Shown here in pieces: positions 5,716 through 17,254 of a DNA stretch of 34,208 nucleotides. The translations under genes were made by a program, and so were the position numbers. The DNA lies in the NCBI GenBank assembly GCA_016219715.1, contig JACRKX010000025.1, positions 1 to 34,208 on the forward strand, in the 5' to 3' direction. Source of the DNA: Actinomycetota bacterium. Lineage in GTDB: Bacteria; Actinomycetota; Thermoleophilia; Solirubrobacterales; JACPNS01. Within the stretch, counting starts at the first letter, position 1. Each line of letters starts with the position of its first letter. The notes under the pieces were generated by a model, which was given only the letters and a program-made list of their open reading frames with translations, ran no database searches and was not told the origin of the DNA.

Positions 5716-8700
5716 TTAAAAACGCATCCGTTTCGCGATTTTCGCTGCGGCAATCTGGTAGCTGGCGGCCGGGCTGAACCGTGCCGTCACCGAACACGTT
5801 CCCTTTGCCCCGCGCAAGCCGATCAGCGCGCTTCTGGCGCGTTCGAGATCGGCCTGGTTGCCGATGCGCTTGCGTCCACAGCGAGCGCCGACGATCAGCG
5901 TTCCCGTAGAAGCCCTCGACACGGTCACCTGCAGCAGCTTGCGCCTGCCCTTGCGTACGACCTTCAAGGCGAGACCGACCTTCTGCGCGCTGGTCTCGAT
6001 GGTCGCCGAAGCGCGCACCATGCGATTCAGTGCGTCGAGCGCTTGGGCCTCGACGGTTACGGGGCGGCCCTGGCGTGCCACCGCCGGAATCACGTACAGG
6101 CCGCCGTCGACGGGCACAAACGGCTGCGACGGGTGGTAGCGGGCGTAAGCGGTGACTGGCGCGCCGACGTTGAAGGCGCGCACGACGACCTGGGCCCGGG
6201 CACCGTAGGAGACGCGGGGCGGCGCCTGTAGCTCGATTGCCGGCTCATCGGCGTCTACGGTCCAGCTGCGCAGCTCTGAGAACTCGGAGCGGTTACCGGC
6301 CACGTCGGTTGCGCGGATCCTCGCGCGTACGTTCTGACCTTCGGCGGCGGTCACCGCGAAGGCGCCGCTGGCGTCGCTGCCATCGTGGACCGTGCTGAAC
6401 GGCCCGCCGTCGACCGAAGTCTGCAATTCGACGGAAGCCACACCCGAGAGCTGGTCGTTTGCGCTCCAGGTGACCATCGCCGTGCGCGCGCCGTACCACG
6501 ACACCGGCGAGTCGATCGCGACCGACGGCGCGACGTTGTCGACGTTCAGCGCGATAGAGCTGGACTGTCCGCTGAAGACCTCAGAGAAGCGCGACCCTTG
6601 AGCGATCACGCGCAGCCCGTAACTGCCGGGCGTGTCGGCCTGAACGGTGAACTCGACGGGCCACGTACCGCCTGGCTGGAGGGTCGCGTTTGCCGGCGTC
6701 GAGATGTCGAGCAGAGTCAGCCCGGCGGGGGTCTCTAGATAGGTGTCGATCGACTGCAGCGCGAGCCCCGTGGTCAAATCGGTGCCGCTCGACTGGTTGA
6801 CGATGTCGGCGCCGATCACGACCGTGTCGCCGGTGTGCAGCGAAGGCTTGCTCAAGGTGATGTTGGTGATCGCCAGGTTCGGCGTGGCCAGCGGGGTGAC
6901 CGGTTGTTCGGCAGCCAGCGCGAATGGTTCGCTCGCTGCGCCGTCGATGCCGCTTGCGGCCTTCACCTTCACGATCGCCGAACCTGCGTTTGCCGCGCGC
7001 GTCTGCTCGACGTTGTCGCGCGCGTCGGCCGCCACGGCGTGCGGACCGAGCGCTTCGGCGTGCTCCTCGCCGTCGACACCGCAGTGGGCGACGGGCGAGC
7101 CGCTCGCGCAGGCGGTGTCGTCGTCGTTGTCGACGCCGGTGGAGGTGTCGCCGCTCGTTCGGTAGAGGAAGAGGTCGAGGTCGGTCAGCGTACGGGCGGA
7201 GAAGCCCGTGATCGTCGGCCAGACCGGGGCGTTGATGCGCCGGTTCCAGGCAAGCGTCACACGCTCGCCGGCCGCCAGCCCGTCGACGCGGTAGAAGCGA
7301 GCCGAGTTGGGACCGGGCTGGCCGTTGGCGCCGGGCGCGGCCGTCACGCTGCCGATCGCCACGTTGCCACGATCGGCGTGGGCGGTCTCCAGCGCCAGCT
7401 CGCCCCAGCCGCCGTCGGGCGTCCAGTAGCGCGCCGCGCTCGTGCCGCCGGGCGAGTCGTATTGCGAGGGCAGCATGAAGGAGCTGTTGATCAGCAACGC
7501 GCGCTGAGCAAGCGGGCTGGTCACACCGACGCCCGCCAGTAGCGCGCTTGCGCCGGCAAGCCGGGCGGAGGCGTAGGAGGTGCCGGTGCCACAGTCGGCG
7601 ATCCACGAGGCGGCGTCTTCGTCGCTCGGGCAGTCGGAAGAGCCTTCGGCAAGCAGGTCGGGCTTCTTGCGGCCGCTGGCGGACGGGCCGGGAGAGCTGG
7701 CGGCCGAGATCGCGTCGTCGGCGCGTCCGGAGCCGTTTGGCGACATCGCGCCGGCGCAGAGCGTGTTGTGCGAGATGCACGGCGACGCCACGCGCTGGGC
7801 GGCGCTGTTGCCGGCCGCCGATGTGCGGGTCACGCCGAAGTTGGCCACGTAGAGGTCGGCAACCTTTTCGCTGTAGGGGTCGCTATTGCCGCTGGCCACG
7901 CCCGACGAGTCGTTGACGACCTCGGGCAGGTCGCCGGCCGGCGCCTCGCCTCCGTTGCTGAAGCCCAGCAGCCAATCGTCGGTGTTGCCGGCGCCAAGCG
8001 GATCGATCAGCTTGTCGACGCGGTGCGCGATGCCGAGGTGCGCTGCGTCGCGCGACCCCACGATCGCCGCCACCGCGTTGCCGTGCAGCGAGCCGTATCC
8101 GCACCACATGTCGCTGACGGCCGGTGTGGGTGAGCAGAGGTTTGCGCCGCCACCGGCCACAGCGCGCTTTGGAGTGCTGACGATGCCGGGCGCGCGCGAG
8201 CTCCAAGCGCTGTGAAACAGGTTGACGCCCTGGTCGACGATCGCCACGTCGGGGCCGCCCTGGCCGTCGGCGCTGTCGACCGCGCCCGAGCAGGATGCGT
8301 CGGCCGCGCCGGCGCCGGTGCAGCCGGCCGCGTGCCAGGTTGGCGAGCCGTCGACGTCACTCGCAGCCATCGGCTTGTGTCGCGGCGCAGCTTCGATCGA
8401 AGCCACGCCGTCGATCTGGAGCGCCTTCTTGAGTGCGCTGAATGGAAGCGTGACGATGATCGAATTCGGCGCCGCCGAATGACTCTCGATCTTCGCGCCG
8501 AGCTTGCGCAGCTTGCCGATCACCGGCCGCTGGCTCTGGGCCACCGCGTCGGCCGAGTCATTCGAGATCGAAGCGATCGCCAGCTCGCGCTCGCGCTCCC
8601 AGCGATCAATGGCATCGGGATCGCGGGTCGTCAGGCCGCCGGCGAGCCGCTTCGCGCTCTCGGCATCGAGACTCTCGCCGATCGCCGGCTGCGAGTCGAG

Positions 8701-8916
8701 CACCACGGCCACACGGTGTCGCGTGGTGCCCCTGTGGGCATGGGAAGATGGCACGGCCGCCGTGGCGGCGGTCGTGTCGCGGGATCCTTCCCGGCGATCA
8801 CCCGTTCCCGAGATTGCATACATCAACCCGGCCCATGCGAATACGCATACGAGGAGGACCGGAATATGCCGAGAACCGAGCGAACCGCGATTGCGGCGCG
8901 CATTGGTCATTGACAT
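5716..8916 (-). CDS. Large secreted subtilase-like S8 protease, divergent paralogue
   Basis: A 1066-residue protein with an N-terminal signal or anchor (hydrophobic residues about 18–36). An S8 peptidase domain spans about residues 215–500, followed by Ig-like and fibronectin-like repeats to a basic C-terminus. The likely triad is Asp228 (in AIVDQG), His278 (in SLHGNAVA) and Ser447 (in GTGTSYASA), with Asn370 in SAAGN for the oxyanion hole. The Asp motif reads DQG instead of DTG, and the usual Pro after GTSxA is missing, so activity may be altered. It is a paralogue of the next gene upstream: they share GSPTWH/GSETWH, LPEVVN, SGRKKPDL/GGRKKPDL and the DNVEQ…VKVKA block. Two Met codons (8916 and 8910) could start it. 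It probably acts at the cell surface; the substrate is unknown. Confidence 0.85.
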   Translation of the reverse strand: MSMTNARRNRGSLGSRHIPVLLVCVFAWAGLMYAISGTGDRREGSRDTTAATAAVPSSHAHRGTTRHRVAVVLDSQPAIGESLDAESAKRLAGGLTTRDPDAIDRWERERELAIASISNDSADAVAQSQRPVIGKLRKLGAKIESHSAAPNSIIVTLPFSALKKALQIDGVASIEAAPRHKPMAASDVDGSPTWHAAGCTGAGAADASCSGAVDSADGQGGPDVAIVDQGVNLFHSAWSSRAPGIVSTPKRAVAGGGANLCSPTPAVSDMWCGYGSLHGNAVAAIVGSRDAAHLGIAHRVDKLIDPLGAGNTDDWLLGFSNGGEAPAGDLPEVVNDSSGVASGNSDPYSEKVADLYVANFGVTRTSAAGNSAAQRVASPCISHNTLCAGAMSPNGSGRADDAISAASSPGPSASGRKKPDLLAEGSSDCPSDEDAASWIADCGTGTSYASARLAGASALLAGVGVTSPLAQRALLINSSFMLPSQYDSPGGTSAARYWTPDGGWGELALETAHADRGNVAIGSVTAAPGANGQPGPNSARFYRVDGLAAGERVTLAWNRRINAPVWPTITGFSARTLTDLDLFLYRTSGDTSTGVDNDDDTACASGSPVAHCGVDGEEHAEALGPHAVAADARDNVEQTRAANAGSAIVKVKAASGIDGAASEPFALAAEQPVTPLATPNLAITNITLSKPSLHTGDTVVIGADIVNQSSGTDLTTGLALQSIDTYLETPAGLTLLDISTPANATLQPGGTWPVEFTVQADTPGSYGLRVIAQGSRFSEVFSGQSSSIALNVDNVAPSVAIDSPVSWYGARTAMVTWSANDQLSGVASVELQTSVDGGPFSTVHDGSDASGAFAVTAAEGQNVRARIRATDVAGNRSEFSELRSWTVDADEPAIELQAPPRVSYGARAQVVVRAFNVGAPVTAYARYHPSQPFVPVDGGLYVIPAVARQGRPVTVEAQALDALNRMVRASATIETSAQKVGLALKVVRKGRRKLLQVTVSRASTGTLIVGARCGRKRIGNQADLERARSALIGLRGAKGTCSVTARFSPAASYQIAAAKIAKRMRF

Positions 8917-9035: not shown

Positions 9036-12000
9036 TCAGGAGACGCGAACGATCTTGGTGGCTCGTCCGGCAAGCATGGTGCCGCGAGCGCCTGAGATCG
9101 CGTTTAGGCGATAACGCCCGGGTTTGAGCGAAATGGAAAGGACGAAGCGCCCGCGGGTTACCTGAACGCGTTTGCGCACCCGTTTGGTGCCGCGTTTACC
9201 GATCCGGGCGACAGTCACCGTTAACTTGCCGCGGTACTCCTTCGAAACGGCGCCTCGCAGCCGGAGCCTGCCGGATCGCGCTTTGGCACCGGTTATCCGC
9301 AGTCCGGGGTTGACGTAGAGCGAGGGGACCGAGAAGTTCCGAGTTGCCGTCGCAACGCGCCCGAGCGTGTCGGTCGCCCGCACGGTAAGCGTGGTCGCGA
9401 AGTCCTTCACCCGGGTGTTGGTGAAGCTGGCGATTGCGCTGTCGATGAACGGCGACTCCGAGCCGGCCCCCGAAAACGAGAAAGACCCGGTGACGGGAGC
9501 TCCTCCGACGTTGGCTACGGAGACGGGAGCGTTCAGAACGTTGCGGGCCGGGAACGACTCCGAGCCGATCGTCGCCTCTGGGCCGATCGCATCGATCGTG
9601 GTCGAAGCCGTCGTCCAGCCGGAGACGTTGCCGAGGGTGTCCGTGGCGCGAACGCGTATGGCGAGGGTCTCGCCTTCGGTCCCGCCGATGGAGGCCGAGG
9701 TCGACGTCGTCCCGGCCGCCAGCACCGAAAACGGTCCGCCGTCGCGCGAGAGCTCGATGTCGTAGGTTGAGACGCCTGTGCCGTCCGTTGCGCTCCAGGT
9801 GAACGCCGCGTTCGGGTCGATCGACCATTCACCGGGGCCGGCAGCCGTCACGATCGGAGCGTCGGAGTCGACGCTGAAGCTGTCCGAGCCTTCGCCGGAG
9901 AACGTTTCGCCGTATGTCGATCCGGTGACGGTGGCGGTCAGGTTGTGAGTCGCCGTCGCCGCGCCTGAGACCTGCCAGCTGGCGTTGGCGCTTCCCGAGG
10001 CTGCGATTGTGCCGAGCGACTGGGTTAGAGCCCCGCTTTCAAGAGTCACGCCTGCGGGTAGCGAGAGGGTTATCTGCGCACCAGTAAGCGCGAGGTCGGC
10101 AGAGGGATTCGCGATCGTCGCGTTCACCGTGACGGTGTCGTTCGGCGCCACGGCCGCGGGCGACGCATTCAGTGTGGCCGCTGGGATTGGAGTCTCGAGT
10201 GCGTCAAGCGTGTGATCGGCGGCGAGCGAGAACGGCTCGGCGGTCGTCCCGTCGATAGTGCTGATCGCCTTCACCTTGATGATCTGCGTGCCTGTGCCGG
10301 TGGAGCGAACCTGCTCGACGTTGTCGGGTCCGTCGCTTCCGTTTCCGGGCATCGGGTTGTCGACGGTGACGGTCTGGTCGGTGTCGACCGTGTCGTTGGC
10401 GTCGACGCCGCCGGTTGCGGTTGGGGTGCAGCCGGGCGAGCAGGCGTCGCCTTCTGCGAACTGGAAGAGATCGAGGTTGGTGAGGGTCGAATATGGCGGG
10501 GCGTTGTTGCCCGTGTAGTTGCCGAGGCGCCGATTCCAGACGAGCGTCGTGCGATCGCCGACCGCAACGCCGGTCACCCGGTAGAAGCGCGCGCCGTTGG
10601 CTCCAGCCGGCGTGACCGCGCCGTTCGCATAGTTCGCGCGCTGGATGAACGCCCCGTCAAGGTTGAGCGCTCCCCAGCCACTTCGAGGCATCCAGTAGGT
10701 CTGGCCCTGGATCGGCGTGGCGGAGTTGATGAGGATTGCTTTCTGGGCGGTTGGGGAATAGACGCCGGTCGAGGCGAGTAGGGCTACTCCGGAGGCGGCT
10801 TGGGGGGCGGCGTAGGAGGTGCCGGAGCCACCGGAGGTGTAAGAGGTGTCGTCGTTCTGCGACGGCGTACCGGCGGCGGGATACGGTTGCGCGATCAAGT
10901 CTGGCTTCTTGCGACCGCCGTAGGTGGGGCCAGGCGAGGAGTTCGGCCAGACTGTCCAGGAGGTCTGGTTGTACGGCTGGCCTTGGATGTCGAGGCCGCC
11001 CGCTGTGATGACGTTGAAATTGTTCCCTGGCGTGCTGACGCGATGCGGCCCGTCGCCGCATCCGGTATATCCGGGGTCCGCAATTCCGCAGTTGCCAGCG
11101 GAGACCGTGTACGCGATGCCGTACTGCGAAACGGACGCATCGACCGGCGACCACGCGAAGTTGCTGTCAGCGCTGTCCTCGTAAATGCCGGCGCTGTAGT
11201 TGACAACCTCGGGGAGATCGGCAACGCCTGGCTCACCGTTGTAGGTGACACCGAGCCACCATCGGTAGGCGTTTTTCGCTTCATAGGTGTCGTAGAGGTT
11301 GTCGAGACCGTAGGCCTGACCTTTGCGGTTTTGCCAGGTTGGCGGCCAGGGTGCGCCGCCAGTCCCGTAAACCCCGAGGTCTGTGGCCGCGACGGCTGCC
11401 CCGACGGTGTTGCCGTGCTTGCTTCCGCTGAAGTCAGTTCGCCCAGCCGGCGATATGACGCGCGACGGCCCGGAGCCGACACAGGTCGCACAGTCACCGG
11501 GCACCCGCGTACGAAACGCGGCATGAGATGTCCGCAGTCCAGTGTCGAAGGCGACATAGTCCGGTCCACCATTGCCGTCAGCCGATGTCCCGCCCCCGGT
11601 GAAGCCGCTGGAATGCCAGGTCTCCGAGCCGTCAACTGGCGAACTCGCCAAGACGGGCTTCTCGGCGTGGACAACTGCGTTCACGTCGCTTGAACCCGTG
11701 ATTGTGGCGAGTGCATTTGCCGGCAGCACAGCGGTGATCGTGTTTGGGATCGGCGTCGCCGACTCGACGCGACCGCCGACGCGCTTGATCGCGCGGGCAA
11801 CTCGCTCGCTCTGCAGCGTTCCCGAGCGTGCAGCGCTTCGGATTGCCGGCAAGGCTGCGTTTCGCTGGTCGTCCATCATCGCCGCGACACGGGCCTCTTG
11901 AGCAGTCCGGCGCTTCGGACTCCGAAGGGCGGCCGCGCGCGCCGCACGTGCGCCCGGCAAACGGCCGGTGAGTTCGGGCCGACGCGAATCGAGCTTCGCC

Positions 12001-12236
12001 GTCAGGCTGTTGTCGGAGAGAAAGAACGTGACGCGAACGCGAGTTCCAGCCAGTTCCGCCAGGCTCTCGATCTGTGAAGCGGGGATGACGTGGGCCGTTT
12101 GGGCGCTTTGCGAGCGCGTCTTGGAGCCGCCGGCGACGCCACTTGCGCAGAGCGCGAGAAAGGTCGCGAGGAGAGCGCAGGCGACGCCCCTGGCACCAAC
12201 GCGGCAGATCAGCGATGTTGAAGTTCGCGCGGGCAT
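9036..12236 (-). CDS. Large secreted subtilase-like S8 protease with Ig-like C-terminal domains
   Basis: A 1066-residue protein with a signal peptide (hydrophobic residues about 15–35). A poorly conserved pro-region leads into an S8 domain at about residues 220–520. The triad is well preserved: Asp231 (YVAFDTG), His274 (SKHGNTVG) and Ser474 (GSGTSYAAP), with Asn382 in SAGN. After the peptidase come a jelly-roll-like segment (DNVEQV…IIKVKA), then beta-sandwich repeats with the phrase IRVRATDTLGNVSGW. A very basic end (residues about 985–1066) probably binds the wall or nucleic acid. It is the better conserved of the two paralogues. The ATG at 12236 has only a weak GAAAAG upstream. It is probably transcribed separately from the Ig-like gene, because a terminator lies between them. 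Confidence 0.88.
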   Translation of the reverse strand: MPARTSTSLICRVGARGVACALLATFLALCASGVAGGSKTRSQSAQTAHVIPASQIESLAELAGTRVRVTFFLSDNSLTAKLDSRRPELTGRLPGARAARAAALRSPKRRTAQEARVAAMMDDQRNAALPAIRSAARSGTLQSERVARAIKRVGGRVESATPIPNTITAVLPANALATITGSSDVNAVVHAEKPVLASSPVDGSETWHSSGFTGGGTSADGNGGPDYVAFDTGLRTSHAAFRTRVPGDCATCVGSGPSRVISPAGRTDFSGSKHGNTVGAAVAATDLGVYGTGGAPWPPTWQNRKGQAYGLDNLYDTYEAKNAYRWWLGVTYNGEPGVADLPEVVNYSAGIYEDSADSNFAWSPVDASVSQYGIAYTVSAGNCGIADPGYTGCGDGPHRVSTPGNNFNVITAGGLDIQGQPYNQTSWTVWPNSSPGPTYGGRKKPDLIAQPYPAAGTPSQNDDTSYTSGGSGTSYAAPQAASGVALLASTGVYSPTAQKAILINSATPIQGQTYWMPRSGWGALNLDGAFIQRANYANGAVTPAGANGARFYRVTGVAVGDRTTLVWNRRLGNYTGNNAPPYSTLTNLDLFQFAEGDACSPGCTPTATGGVDANDTVDTDQTVTVDNPMPGNGSDGPDNVEQVRSTGTGTQIIKVKAISTIDGTTAEPFSLAADHTLDALETPIPAATLNASPAAVAPNDTVTVNATIANPSADLALTGAQITLSLPAGVTLESGALTQSLGTIAASGSANASWQVSGAATATHNLTATVTGSTYGETFSGEGSDSFSVDSDAPIVTAAGPGEWSIDPNAAFTWSATDGTGVSTYDIELSRDGGPFSVLAAGTTSTSASIGGTEGETLAIRVRATDTLGNVSGWTTASTTIDAIGPEATIGSESFPARNVLNAPVSVANVGGAPVTGSFSFSGAGSESPFIDSAIASFTNTRVKDFATTLTVRATDTLGRVATATRNFSVPSLYVNPGLRITGAKARSGRLRLRGAVSKEYRGKLTVTVARIGKRGTKRVRKRVQVTRGRFVLSISLKPGRYRLNAISGARGTMLAGRATKIVRVS

Positions 12237-12517: not shown

Positions 12518-12549
12518 GGAAAAAGCGGCCAGAGGAGTCTCCGGCCGCT
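12518..12549 (-). terminator. Rho-independent terminator of the Ig-like secreted protein gene
   Basis: On the minus strand an 11-bp stem with one G·U pair (AGCGGCCGGAG / CTCTGGCCGCT, loop ACTC) runs into TTTTTCC. It lies about 95 bp beyond the stop codon of the gene ending at 12644 and would end the sigma–Ig-like operon. Confidence 0.85.
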
Positions 12550-12643
12550 AATGCCGACTGAACCCAATCAGCTCGTAGCGCGTGAGCGCTTGCGGAGGGG
12601 CTCGTCTGTCGCTGTCGGCGGGCGAACGCATTTCGGTGGTGAC

Positions 12644-15643
12644 TCAGTTCAGCCGCAAAGTGACCCTCCTCGACGAGCTGGCGGCGTGGTTCCATCCGTC
12701 CTCGGTCGGCGCGTAGACACGGAAGACGATGCGCGCCTTCACGCCCTTCGAGATCCGGTCGAACCTGTACTTGACAGCGAAGTTGCCGTTCGAGTCAGTG
12801 TGAGCGATTGCCACGGCGGGCCGCCACTTCTTGCCGGCGTAGAACTGCAGGGCGACGATCTTGCCAGCGGCGGGGATTACACCGTCGAACGACCGCACCG
12901 ATCCGCGGAAGGTCACGGTTTGCCCAGTTCTGGCATGGCGTGTCGACACGCGCAGCTTGAGCTTTGCCCCGGTTCCGAGCTGCACGGTCGCCGAGGTGTC
13001 CTGGTTGGTGTTGGTGCCGGGGTAGTAGACGCGGATCTGTCTGCTGACGCCGGGCCTGATCTTGAACACGTAGGAGCCGTCGGTGCGCGTTGAGGTCGTG
13101 CCCAGAAGTTGTTCGCTTCCGCCCTTGACACGCGCGTAGATCTCGATTGGCTGACGGGCGAGGCGGGTCAGCGTGTTGGTGGTCAGGAAGCCCTGCGCGA
13201 CCGCGCCGCGCTTATAGCCGACCGAAAGAGTCGGGTAGGTGCCGGTGAAGACGACCTTGCCGCGGGACCGTTTGACGCATTTGGGGCCGCGCTTCTTCTT
13301 GCAGGTTCTCTTGGCCTTTGAGAGTCCGGCCGAGAGGGCGACGCCGTCGCGCATCGGATTCTCGAAGGTGAAGGTGTTGCCGTTCTCGTCTTTGGATGTG
13401 ACGAGTTCGTTTCCGGCCTGGTCGTAGGCGCGGACACGGGCGACGTAGGTGCCCTGCGGTAGCGACGTGTCCGGGAAGACCGCAGACGCGACCGCTGAGG
13501 TTGGGTAACCGCCGACGGGGTTGCCTGAGAGATCCGCGAGCGAGGTTGGAAGGAGCTGCCAGTCGCCTTCGCCCTGCTTGCTGACTTCGATCGTGCTCAG
13601 TGCGATGCCCGAGACGCTGTCGCCGATCGGCGCACGAAGCAGTCGCGGATTGCTTGACGAGCGCGCGGTGAAATGGCCGGTGGGATCGGATGCGTCAATT
13701 CCGAAGTTGACGACCTTCGCGGCCGCCTTGTTGCCGGCGAGGTCGACCGGTGAGAGGCGTAGTTCTTTGGAACCTTCGCCGGAAATACTGATCATTGTGT
13801 CGGAGCCCCGGGGCACGTTGGTCGCGTCTGGGCCGACGCCGTCGATCGAATAATCGAGGTATGCACCGTCCGCGAATTCGTTTGTGGCGCTAGGGGCCAT
13901 CCCAGAGAGAGCGTCGGTGCCGTGAAGGCCGACCAGCTGACCGTCCTTATACCAACGACCGTTCTCGATGCCCGAGATAGTTCCGGTGGGATCAGTCAGG
14001 TCAACCTTCGCCTCAACGTTTTCGGTCGCCGACGAAGCCAACCCCGCGCAAGTCACCGCCCTCAGGTGAATCCAGTGGTTGTCCTCGGACAGGTTCGCCG
14101 GAAGTCGCCACTTGCGCACATTGCCGGGGATGTTGATTGTCGTTCCTGGGTTGTCGATCTGGCTAAGGCTGATCGATCCGGCGAAACCACATATCGGAGC
14201 GAAAGAGCCAGGCAGTGCGGTGAAGTCCCACTCCTGGTCGTAGCCGTTCGCGAGGTCCAACCGGCTAATCCACCCATTCGCCTGCCCCTGCGGCGCCGCA
14301 GGCGGAGTCGGGTCGTAACCAATCTCGTGGTCTGAATCCGCGCCACCGCCAGACCCATCTCCGATAGCACTCTCATTCCCGGCTTTGTCGATAACCGAAA
14401 GGCGAAGCCTCCACTGTCCGGCCGCGGGAACGGTAAGGCCGCTGATCGATGAGCGGGTAGCGGCGATGCCTGAGACCGTGCCCCCTACGGGGATCGTGAC
14501 GGCGGCGGGATTCGACTGACTCCCGGCGTCAACTGGCTCGACGTCGACCTTCACCTGATCGATGCCCGAGTGCGTCTCGTCTTCGAGCTCCTCGGTGTCG
14601 TTCGCCCACGTCACGTCGAAGTCGTTGGTCGCGCTCCAGCCTTGCTGCGTGCCAGCGATGGCTATGTTGCTCGGCGTGCTCGGACCAGTGTTGTCGACGT
14701 AGAACGAGACCGTGTTCGTGTGTTGATTGCCGGCGGCGTCAGTGGCGCGCACCGTGTAGGCGTGCGGGCCGTCGCCGGAGTTCGCGGAGATCACATTCGT
14801 GTTGACCGAACCGAAGTTGTCGTACTTCGTGCTCGGGCAGGGTTGCCAGTTGACGTAGTTGCACCCGGAATTGAGCGTCGTGACGATCGGCTCGAGTGTG
14901 GTGTCGCCGTCGGCGTAGGACTCGACCTGCTTGATGCCGCCCTGTGCGTCGGCGCCGCCGACATACGTAGTCCTAGTGCCGCTATTCCAGGCGCGACCGA
15001 CCGGCTGGTTGTAGGAAGTCTTGAGTGTGCCGCTGTAGGGCGGAAGAGCTCCGGGGGCGACCAGGTCTTCGACGGTGAAGATCATCGAGCCGAATCCGAG
15101 ATGGCCGAGAACGCCGGTGCCTTGGTAGTTGCCGCTGGCGGTCACGACGTTGAACATGTAGCGATTGCACGTGTAGGACGTATACAGGCAAGCGACGTTC
15201 GTCTCAATCGTCTGCCCGGCGGTGTCGAACGCTGGGAGGGTGGTGCTCGTCGTGCAGATTCCGTTCCATACCGGCAGCCCGTCGATACAGGTACGAATGG
15301 CGTTCGTGGTCGAGCCGCCGCCGACGGATCCGTTGACCTTGAGGTTGAGGTTCGAGAACTTCAGACCGCTCGGCAGAGAGGGGGTCGACCACCACATGTA
15401 CTGGCCGCCGCCGGCGACGCCGGTCGCTGTCAGCCCGAACATGCTGTTGAAACAGGAGGCGACCCCGCCAGTGAATCCGTTTGCCCCCGCCGCCCAACCG
15501 GGAGCGCTTGCGTCTCCGTAGGACGGGTGGCACTGGTAGACGTTGTAGGAGCCTGCGCTGGCCGGGGCGGCCATCGCCGCGAGCAGCACAAGGCATGCCA
15601 GCGCAGAGAGGAGCTGTGCCCTGAGGCCGAATCGAATGGTCAT
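12644..15643 (-). CDS. Large secreted Ig-like surface protein
   Basis: A 999-residue protein with a clear signal peptide (MTIRFGLRAQLLSALAC… ending in ASA at about residue 30). The first 200 residues contain several Cys and look like a lectin-like or concanavalin-like beta-sandwich (SYNVYQCHPSYGDAS…). Repeated Ig-like modules follow, marked by VRATDAAGNQH, SVIDKAGNESA, SPVDLAGNKAA and VRAYDQAGNEL. The end is two basic beta-sandwich modules rich in Lys and Arg. No catalytic motif is visible, so an adhesive or structural role at the cell surface is likely. ATG 15643 is chosen because the signal peptide begins there and AAGGA lies 12 nt upstream. It follows the sigma-factor gene by 37 bp, so the two are probably one operon ending at the terminator at 12518–12549. 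Confidence 0.82.
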   Translation of the reverse strand: MTIRFGLRAQLLSALACLVLLAAMAAPASAGSYNVYQCHPSYGDASAPGWAAGANGFTGGVASCFNSMFGLTATGVAGGGQYMWWSTPSLPSGLKFSNLNLKVNGSVGGGSTTNAIRTCIDGLPVWNGICTTSTTLPAFDTAGQTIETNVACLYTSYTCNRYMFNVVTASGNYQGTGVLGHLGFGSMIFTVEDLVAPGALPPYSGTLKTSYNQPVGRAWNSGTRTTYVGGADAQGGIKQVESYADGDTTLEPIVTTLNSGCNYVNWQPCPSTKYDNFGSVNTNVISANSGDGPHAYTVRATDAAGNQHTNTVSFYVDNTGPSTPSNIAIAGTQQGWSATNDFDVTWANDTEELEDETHSGIDQVKVDVEPVDAGSQSNPAAVTIPVGGTVSGIAATRSSISGLTVPAAGQWRLRLSVIDKAGNESAIGDGSGGGADSDHEIGYDPTPPAAPQGQANGWISRLDLANGYDQEWDFTALPGSFAPICGFAGSISLSQIDNPGTTINIPGNVRKWRLPANLSEDNHWIHLRAVTCAGLASSATENVEAKVDLTDPTGTISGIENGRWYKDGQLVGLHGTDALSGMAPSATNEFADGAYLDYSIDGVGPDATNVPRGSDTMISISGEGSKELRLSPVDLAGNKAAAKVVNFGIDASDPTGHFTARSSSNPRLLRAPIGDSVSGIALSTIEVSKQGEGDWQLLPTSLADLSGNPVGGYPTSAVASAVFPDTSLPQGTYVARVRAYDQAGNELVTSKDENGNTFTFENPMRDGVALSAGLSKAKRTCKKKRGPKCVKRSRGKVVFTGTYPTLSVGYKRGAVAQGFLTTNTLTRLARQPIEIYARVKGGSEQLLGTTSTRTDGSYVFKIRPGVSRQIRVYYPGTNTNQDTSATVQLGTGAKLKLRVSTRHARTGQTVTFRGSVRSFDGVIPAAGKIVALQFYAGKKWRPAVAIAHTDSNGNFAVKYRFDRISKGVKARIVFRVYAPTEDGWNHAASSSRRVTLRLN

Positions 15644-15680
15644 TGTCTTGGTGGTCCTTGGTCGATGATTGTGGGAGCGC

Positions 15681-16886
15681 TTAGCGCCCTTCTGGCAGGA
15701 ATTCGCTCGAGCCGTTGTCAACGTGCTTCGGGGAGGACGTGGCGGGCTGAGTGTTCGACGGCGGGGAGGACGGCGCGCTGGCGGCCGGAGTTGTCGTGGC
15801 CCGCCGGTGCTCTTGCTTGCGGGCGGCGCGATCGGTCGCGGTCGGCCGTGAATCGATGCGATCGAACAGGCTCGGCGGTGTGGGAGAGACCGGCGCGGAT
15901 GCCGACTCGACTGCCGACTTCTCGGGCGTGCGTTCGAGCACGCCACTGTGCTCGGCCGCCACGCCGCCGGCCGTCAGCACGGCGGCGGTCGCGGCAATCG
16001 CTCCCAGCTTCTTTGCGGTGCCCACTTCTATCCAGTGCTGGATCGCCGCGACCTGGGCGCCGACGCGATCGTTTGCAGACGTCCAGACGGCGCCGAACTG
16101 ATCGAACACGTTCGGGAGCGATTCGCCGACGGGGGAGGCGGCCGACGCCACCAGTGGAAGCGGGAAGAGCACGGCAATGCGCGTCGGAGCTTCGCGGTAG
16201 GCGCGAAGCGTCGCTCGGCAGCCCGCGCAGTTGCGGAGGTGGGCTCGGGCTTCCATGTGGGCGTACGAATCGCCGTCGGCCATTCGCTGCAACACCGGCT
16301 CGAGCCGTTCGCATTCAGATCCAGATTCGATCGCCGAGAAATGAGACGTGAAGGCCCTCCGGCCGTCGGTCACGCAGCGCGTCACCTTGCGTGCGGTGAA
16401 TCCGGTCAGCTCGGAAATCTCGCCGTAGGAATGGCCCTGGGCGTAGGCGAGCAGGCAGTGAACCTGATCGTGGGTGAGGTGCTCAAGGGCTTCGGCGCCG
16501 GTGCTCGTGCGCTCGCCGCGCACGAGCAGTTCGTCGGGAGTCGCGCTGTCTGACTCGACTTCGTCTTCAAGCGACTCGATCGGATCGCTGGCGGTGCGCT
16601 TGCGAGAGCGCGCGATGTCGAGCGCCTCGTTGCGCACGACGGTGCGGAGCCACGGGATCAACTCGGCTGGATCGGCGCTCGGTGCCTTGGTGAGCAAGAT
16701 CTCGAGGGCGCGCTGGTAGGCGTCGTCGGCATCGTCTGCGGTGGCGCTGTACTTCAGCGCGTCGCGCAGGATCATCGCGCCGTGTGTGAGCACCAGCTCG
16801 GTGGCCACTTCGTTCAATTCGCTTGTCGATATGTGCGGGTTCGCGCCGTCGCTGCCGAGCGCAGGCGGCGCTGCTGTCTTACTCAT
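15681..16886 (-). CDS. ECF-type sigma factor fused to a zinc-finger anti-sigma domain and membrane segment
   Basis: A 401-residue protein. Residues about 30–98 are sigma region 2 (DDADDAYQRALEILL, PWLRTVVRNEALDIARSRKR), and about 130–185 are sigma region 4 with its HTH (HDQVHCLLAYAQG, YGEISELTGFTARKVTRCV). Residues about 190–230 carry a His-x3-Cys-x2-Cys motif (HLRNCAGC) typical of zinc-binding anti-sigma factors. A hydrophobic segment at about 294–312 (LGAIAATAAVLTAGGVAA) could span the membrane, and the C-terminal 80 residues are Pro/Ser/Thr-rich, like an extracytoplasmic linker. It thus joins in one chain what are usually two proteins, suggesting a membrane-held sigma factor released by proteolysis; that mechanism is inference. 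It leads the operon with the Ig-like secreted protein. The ATG has TGGAAAT upstream. Confidence 0.85.
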   Translation of the reverse strand: MSKTAAPPALGSDGANPHISTSELNEVATELVLTHGAMILRDALKYSATADDADDAYQRALEILLTKAPSADPAELIPWLRTVVRNEALDIARSRKRTASDPIESLEDEVESDSATPDELLVRGERTSTGAEALEHLTHDQVHCLLAYAQGHSYGEISELTGFTARKVTRCVTDGRRAFTSHFSAIESGSECERLEPVLQRMADGDSYAHMEARAHLRNCAGCRATLRAYREAPTRIAVLFPLPLVASAASPVGESLPNVFDQFGAVWTSANDRVGAQVAAIQHWIEVGTAKKLGAIAATAAVLTAGGVAAEHSGVLERTPEKSAVESASAPVSPTPPSLFDRIDSRPTATDRAARKQEHRRATTTPAASAPSSPPSNTQPATSSPKHVDNGSSEFLPEGR

Positions 16887-17254
16887 TTCGATTTCCAGTC
16901 GTTGTCGGGCGAGGTGCCGAGTTCGCTAGCAACGCGCGGGCGGGGCAGCCGAGAGGCTTGGGCCGCCCCCCGTGCCGAACTTCCCCCCGACGGGGGACGA
17001 GCCCAACCCTGGCGCGCGGTGTTCCCCAGGGACTTGGAGACGCGCGCTCGGTTCTGTATAGCTCAGAATTCGGTATGTGGCAAGGGTGAATATCCGCAGT
17101 TGTGGTCTGCGGTGTTCACACTCGGTTAACGAATGAGCGGGGTCGCTCTTACTCCCTTGAATGGGGTAGTGAGCGAAATAATCTTTCGCGATCGCTTCAG
17201 ATTGCCGTTGCGCAGGCGCCTGCGCAGAGATCGCAACCTTGCGCGAGATCTGGC
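16887..17254. other. 368-bp gap: leader of the sigma gene and palindromes
   Basis: It lies between the nucleoside phosphorylase stop and the sigma-factor start, both on the minus strand. It holds an 18-bp perfect palindrome TGCGCAGGCGCCTGCGCA (17209–17226) just after the phosphorylase stop. Other repeats are GCGAAA-N5-TTTCGC (17173–17189), TTCTG-N7-CAGAA (17052–17068) and two GC-rich stems near the sigma start (16942–16969, 9 bp with one wobble pair; 16984–16996, 5 bp). The palindrome lacks a T-run. I find no reliable promoter, known riboswitch or tRNA. Confidence 0.5.

Follow-up and report, generated by a model that had tools for sequence, protein, structure and literature searches.

We describe a two-gene unit in a 34,208-nucleotide stretch of DNA (the window; contig JACRKX010000025.1 of assembly GCA_016219715.1, an actinobacterium of the class Thermoleophilia) that encodes a fusion protein followed by a large secreted protein with immunoglobulin-like (Ig-like) modules. 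The fusion joins an extracytoplasmic function (ECF) sigma factor, a zinc-finger anti-sigma domain, a transmembrane (TM) segment and a low-complexity tail on one chain, and the tail ends in a short motif, which we refer to as the EF motif, that recurs amongst its relatives. As read from the sequences, this tail probably serves for docking or recognition in connection with the secreted family. The main reason is that the same motif stands on TM proteins which lack a sigma part and lie beside genes of the secreted family, which ties the tail to that family and not to sigma activity.

The fusion and the secreted protein stay together across genomes. All five genomes of the genus carry the fusion, as an orthologue and one to several paralogues, and with the secreted protein as query (E <= 1e-10) there were 23 matches in them (6+3+8+3+3), all 23 within a few kb of a fusion or, on G002:C28, of its C-terminal fragment; at most fusions the partner starts between a 4 bp overlap and +67 bp. 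Motif and partner also occur together in a more distant fusion group (L120, L140, L167, L168 and L182; L131 has the motif only) and in a further family within the class (L178, L179 and L181), in which L180 was scored as having neither and is followed by a weak secreted-family match (E 1.4e-9). Across the phylum, the window protein was matched at E <= 1e-12 in 11 of 246 genomes, all in its class, and a profile at E <= 1e-15 in 13 of 198, two of them outside the class. The initial annotation had called for such a genome survey and had named the lack of a conserved pairing with secreted-protein genes as grounds for giving up its proposal; because the pairing is kept across genomes, those grounds fall away.

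The tail motif follows the pattern [EDQ]F-x-[P/F/V/I/L]. Among the closer fusions, 37 complete tails hold 41 copies, compared with a mean of 1.8 and at most 6 after shuffling, and 30 tails from the more distant fusions hold 10 (0.8 after shuffling), with a copy at or near the C-terminus in many tails and a second, internal copy in several. The window protein and its orthologues end in EFLPEGR, EFTPEGR, EFLPEER plus three residues, or EFLPEAR, and many others in EFGP. A secreted-family gene follows directly after 29 of 39 motif-bearing fusions and after none of 29 motif-less ones (Fisher 5e-11, kinship of the sequences ignored), counted over complete zinc-finger fusions that have a visible partner or no less than 1.2 kb of sequence behind them. 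The 39 comprise 31 EF tails, seven of an LxP class and L071, which ends in GGFGFE, was scored as having no motif by the pattern and was then moved to the motif class for the Fisher test. Fusions truncated at a contig end were left out, as were L122, for want of room, and all rows lacking HxxxCxxC, among which L145 ends in EFGP and has its partner next to it; at L047, L134, L149 and L153 the profile found no fusion at the thresholds used. The enrichment, about 20-fold, bears on the reading that this is an ordinary fusion of the ECF52, ECF48 or ECF53 type with a nonspecific tail, the secreted gene being a target that common descent happens to have left nearby. The overall plan is that of ECF52 (PMC5826349), and some fusions of the family have no adjacent secreted partner, but we consider this reading distinctly unlikely, given the enriched motif, a window tail with no carbohydrate-binding domain and a pairing that holds up among divergent fusions and in a further family within the class.

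The possibility that the EF motif is a general export tag was rejected. EFGP directly before a stop codon occurs at 20 sites in 41 genomes (4 in the reversed control), nine of which are the ends of fusions already in the set. Of the 11 further places, all of which were read, two are new fusions (L167 and L168), L169 is a TM protein of unclear start, six fall in open reading frames (ORFs) below 100 aa (L170-L172, L174, L175 and L177) and two have no reported ORF (L173 and L176), so that nearly all real ORFs above 100 aa with an EFGP end are fusions. L172 sits where a contig begins, and it could be the end broken off the truncated fusion of G035. EFGFE at any position was found at 37 sites (7 in the control), and of the 20 sites read, 18 fell within unrelated frames or well away from their ends.

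Proteins with the same tail and no sigma part came from 20 hand-picked secreted-family places (22 genes) at which no fusion was then known. An ORF with an EF tail lies directly upstream of nine of the 22 genes, compared with 47 of 4000 random places (1.2%), and the same test found none for the other 13. One of the nine is the fusion L182, and the remaining eight have neither a zinc finger nor a sigma-profile match; seven of these have a clear TM segment (L183, L184, L185, L187, L188, L191 and L193) and L192 is cut at a contig end. The called lengths of six of them are 138-199 aa, and one more such protein, at G022:C1:217923 (L210), ends in EFGFEG immediately ahead of its secreted gene. Where the N-termini of the short proteins were read they are basic ahead of the TM segment, and a tail outside the cell is therefore favoured. 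These proteins also bear on a second alternative, in which the motif is a tag for an extracytoplasmic protease of the C-terminal processing or PDZ kind and not where the secreted protein docks, and the secreted gene is mere output. This is unlikely, though somewhat less so than the ordinary-fusion reading. In its favour, the motif often forms the very C-terminus, the unit adjoins a predicted secreted protease-like gene (9036-12236) and a secreted gene is likewise next in four orthologous loci, the site-2 protease family is present, and Prc and RseP activate the fused factor IutY (PMC8999054). However, the motif also occurs mid-tail, and it is carried by the sigma-less TM proteins beside the secreted family, where release of a sigma factor cannot be its purpose.

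We therefore propose, at about equal likelihood of holding or failing, that the chain is a membrane-bound ECF sigma factor which inhibits itself, has the secreted partner as its extracellular sensor in trans and is freed by proteolysis. The fused zinc-finger domain would keep both sigma regions (2 and 4) inactive at the membrane, which a single weak helix would span, and the disordered outer tail would display one or more EF motifs, with one of them at or close to the C-terminus. The co-transcribed Ig-like protein would dock on an EF motif through its six-cysteine N-terminal domain and so act in trans as an extracellular sensor or anchor; a change in the envelope would alter docking and lead to regulated proteolysis, an outer cut first and then one by a site-2 protease, which would free the sigma part. 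The site-2 protease (M50) family is present in all five genus genomes. Self-inhibition and proteolytic release are suggested by analogy with the fused sigma factors IutY and SCO4117, and docking of the secreted partner by the sequence patterns above; we infer that the C-terminus lies outside and that the envelope is sensed, and the regulon of the fusion sigma factor is put forward on the same footing. More tentatively, and with doubt slightly the stronger side, this may be one form of a modular surface system of the Thermoleophilia, in which secreted proteins with an undescribed six-cysteine domain at the N-terminus dock on the EF tails of single-TM proteins whose cytoplasmic end is exchangeable: nothing in an anchor, or an ECF sigma factor with its anti-sigma domain in a reporter, so that a short linear motif would link the sigma factor to what it senses, a separate secreted protein. 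It is also conceivable that the tail anchors the secreted protein at the membrane and the sigma factor reports free tail, and hence the supply of surface protein, with no outside signal. The secreted protein has no Pfam anchor domain and the sigma-less EF-tail proteins could be pure anchors; the docking step is common to this account and to the proposed sensor in trans, and we regard the supply account as very improbable.

Several observations weigh against the sensor in trans. Two genomes, G006 and G024, have a fusion and no secreted-family match at E <= 1e-8 (the G024 fusion ends in EFGL), and 10 motif-bearing fusions have no adjacent secreted-family gene. Seven paralogues in the genus end in variants such as GLAP, without EF; the LxP class that holds such ends was set post hoc, after its sequences were seen, and EF alone gives p = 1.9e-4 for the association of motif and partner, again with kinship ignored. 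The predicted membrane helix is weak and there is a second hydrophobic stretch, with a hydropathy of 1.76 in the window protein, so that a topology with two helices is possible. Finally, the AlphaFold2 model of the fusion is poor beyond residue 240 and, at its low confidence, gives no reliable docking of the sigma and anti-sigma parts.

The composition of the fusion is as the initial annotation had described it, with sigma regions 2 and 4, HxxxCxxC, a TM segment and a Pro/Ser/Thr-rich tail on one chain (ORF, Pfam, NCBIfam and family profile). Sigma70_r4_2 scores below the Pfam cut-off in the window protein alone; amongst aligned relatives at E <= 0.01, region 2 is found in 32 of 32 and region 4 in 30 of 32, and the window protein passes the NCBIfam sigma70-ECF cut-off (45.8 vs. 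42.9). By sequence, the two regions place the chain among the ECF sigma factors (group 4). It is no product of chance: all 41 related genomes match it at E <= 0.001, with ordinary sigma factors among the weaker matches. Its AlphaFold2 model (mean pLDDT 50.8, from three sequences) has the sigma helices and a helical zinc-finger region at moderate confidence, and its best Foldseek matches are ECF sigma factors. H216, C220 and C223 are invariant across 32 aligned rows, and zf-HC2 is matched by 24 of the 32 relatives and not by the window protein alone. The family profile matches the structure of the anti-sigma factor RsiW at residues 193-234 (E 0.0027), and DdvA too, which identifies the HxxxCxxC region as a helical domain related to known zinc-finger anti-sigma factors (ZAS). 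The Ala/Gly-rich membrane helix has a mean hydropathy of 1.79, and 54 of 61 fusions reach 1.6 at its position; the second stretch, at about residues 236-253, reaches 1.6 in only 12 of 61. No Pfam domain, carbohydrate-binding domains included, was found after the sigma part of the window protein.

Three sets of fusions outside the window deserve separate mention. In one family of the order (L052, L054, L055, L059 and L063) the fusion lies near genes that look by eye like sugar transferases and ABC-2 polysaccharide exporters, which looks like another link to the envelope. At L076 the halves of a fusion (G008:C1:4342736 and 4352155) lie about 9 kb apart, with in-frame stops, adjoining a secreted-family gene, and this is probably a broken gene. 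Similarly, the front and rear parts of a fusion lie at two contig ends at L046 and L047 (G002:C16 and C28), and transposase-like letters at the end of G002:C16 suggest an insertion element.

The partner was also as first annotated, a 999-residue secreted Ig-like protein beside the fusion; its ORF has an ATG start and a signal peptide, and Big_13 and Big_3_2 score above their Pfam cut-offs. Six cysteines are invariant in its N-terminal domain over 34 aligned rows, none of which has a Pfam match to this domain, nor has the window protein any in its first 280 residues. AlphaFold2 was uninformative here (mean pLDDT 32, two sequences), and two weak matches to PDB sequences (E 0.048 and 0.2) were not taken as evidence. 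A profile of the 34 rows found the secreted family in 38 of 41 genomes, with 32 matches in the genus. Of these, 23 are at fusions already identified by the search with the window chain; of the other nine, six matches at five loci were read, with two on G001:C20 and one at G002:C26:8578 outside that set. One of the six follows the divergent fusion L182 (ending EFDLQ), a second, in tandem with the first, has no such protein directly upstream, three follow the sigma-less EF-tail proteins L183, L184 and L185, and none was found at L186.

Upstream of the fusion, the aligned regions of the five orthologous loci share a single promoter, which resembles the housekeeping type, and from the sequence the operon probably starts there. 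The initial annotation had suggested that the fusion controls its own surface protein, and this promoter gives that suggestion no support. Autoregulation through an ECF promoter was rejected, as the alignment gave only TTGC...TATACA; no ECF-type element was conserved by eye in the five regions, no two-box motif search having been made across the paralogues. The P1 hairpin of a structured leader begins exactly 6 nt past TATACA in all five orthologues, at the predicted +1, with TCTCGGT in its internal loop (TCTCCAA in the window), and another hairpin comes after it. A model of the leader hairpin (R1) had one strong match in each of the five genus genomes, always at the orthologous locus, and a best match elsewhere, over 21 genomes, of E 0.036. 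Covariation in P1 is modest: four of 13 pairs changed on both sides and seven cells compared with at most two in slid controls, in an alignment of only five sequences, with an imperfect fit of the rows for the window and L048. With no Rfam match at the gathering score, and five chance-level ones at a lax threshold, a known riboswitch was rejected. The leader, conserved and single-copy in all five genomes, is a candidate new cis-regulatory RNA, and control of the operon at the RNA level is possible. At about 17150-17170, upstream of the promoter, there is an inverted-repeat-like element, TACCCCATtCaaGGGAGTA, similar in L049, L050 and L051, which may act as an operator or mark where the preceding transcript ends.

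Features of the two-gene unit and its upstream region, in window positions.
Feature	Position	Strand	Basis
ECF sigma / anti-sigma (ZAS) / TM / tail fusion, 401 aa	15681..16886	(-)	ORF, Pfam, NCBIfam, relatives
Sigma region 2, aa 31-98	16593..16796	(-)	Pfam Sigma70_r2 above cut-off; AlphaFold2 helices; Foldseek ECF sigma structures
Sigma region 4, Pfam aa 132-169, helices to about 181	16380..16493	(-)	Sigma70_r4_2, AlphaFold2
Zinc-finger anti-sigma domain, aa 190-240	16167..16319	(-)	zf-HC2 in relatives; RsiW, DdvA profile matches
H216xxxC220xxC223 motif (H216LRNCAGC)	16218-16241	(-)	
Predicted membrane helix, aa 294-311	15954..16007	(-)	hydropathy and flanking charge
Pro/Ser/Thr/Ala-rich tail, aa 312-401 (90 aa), predicted extracellular	15684..15953	(-)	composition; low fold confidence
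C-terminal EFLPEGR, aa 395-401, form of the EF motif in the window	15684..15704	(-)	
Secreted partner, 999 aa: signal peptide, six-Cys N-terminal domain, Ig-like modules	12644..15643	(-)	ORF, Pfam
Signal-peptide end and N-terminal domain of the partner, aa 14-306	14726..15604	(-)	
Conserved promoter TTGCCA - 17 nt - TATACA	17055..17083	(-)	five orthologous upstream regions aligned
Structured 5' leader: P1 17012-17048, then P2 16960-17004	16960..17048	(-)	
Terminator-like hairpin with T run, 3' of the secreted gene	12524..12549	(-)	

The two ORFs are separated by 37 bp, with the secreted gene downstream. Terminator-like matches are not enriched in the region (3 vs. a shuffle mean of 3.8). In all five genus genomes the orthologous fusion is flanked by a phosphorylase-like gene, a label for which the Pfam test covered the window copy only, and by a second large gene. 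The adjoining protease-like gene, on the (-) strand, encodes 1066 aa with no Pfam peptidase match, and has DTG, HGN and GTSYAAP, which we take to be the D/H/S motifs of a subtilisin-like protease; the large secreted genes next in the four orthologous loci encode 858-1095 aa. It is followed by a further large (-) ORF (5716-8916, 1066 aa from its first ATG) with weak Ig-like matches.

The initial annotation had considered the arrangement an undescribed system. For the fusion itself this does not stand, since fused sigma/anti-sigma proteins are a known kind (ECF48, ECF52, ECF53 and IutY; PMC8999054, PMC5826349); less expected, and absent from the initial annotation, are the tail motif, the sigma-less relatives, the six-cysteine domain and the leader RNA, of which the repeated EF motif, the sigma-less proteins that share it and the six-cysteine domain without a Pfam match look new. 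No literature on such fusions in Solirubrobacter, Conexibacter or the Thermoleophilia was found, and the 2021 re-classification of ECF factors may already number the group. The WD40-like-repeat fusions of the ECF57 type resemble the window chain in joining a sigma factor to a C-terminal regulatory extension (PMC8999054). L231 (G129:C49), one of the two profile matches outside the class, runs from sigma factor to zinc finger, TM segment and a long C-terminal part that reads as propeller-like, has no EF tail and is not of the window family. SigI and RsgI are two separate proteins with the sensor fused to the anti-sigma factor, unlike the single chain of the window. In Clostridium thermocellum an extracellular part of this pair senses the outside and the sigma factor controls surface proteins (PMC10766802), as in the system proposed here. 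ECF48 and ECF53, likened to the window by description and not by sequence, have C-terminal zinc-finger and TM extensions and occur in Actinobacteria (PMC8999054). IutY (ECF243, Pseudomonas putida) likewise joins a sigma factor and a membrane-located anti-sigma part in one protein (PMC8999054). Its class belongs to iron-starvation cell-surface signalling with an outer-membrane receptor; the partner in the window is a secreted Ig-like protein.

The outside signal of fused sigma/anti-sigma proteins is so far mostly unknown, though sensing is predicted. If the EF tail does serve for docking, the signal input of a whole sigma group becomes directly testable, a large secreted family in a poorly studied bacterial class gains its first role, and the fusion is a natural one-component sigma switch for engineering. 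The ECF52 sigma factor SCO4117 of Streptomyces coelicolor carries an ECF domain, a zinc finger, a TM segment and a Pro-rich extracellular part on one chain, and its release by proteolysis has been proposed (PMC5826349); once truncated so as to lose the zinc finger, the TM segment and the binding module, it activated expression of its own gene (PMC8999054, PMC5826349). The window protein has the zinc finger, a weak predicted TM segment and the Pro-rich stretch and lacks the C-terminal carbohydrate-binding domain. Set apart by description and not by the SCO4117 sequence, ECF52 ends in that fused domain (PMC5826349), whereas the window tail offers an EF motif and a separate secreted protein; if the tail docks its partner, sensor and switch would be separable and joined by a motif of 4-7 residues.
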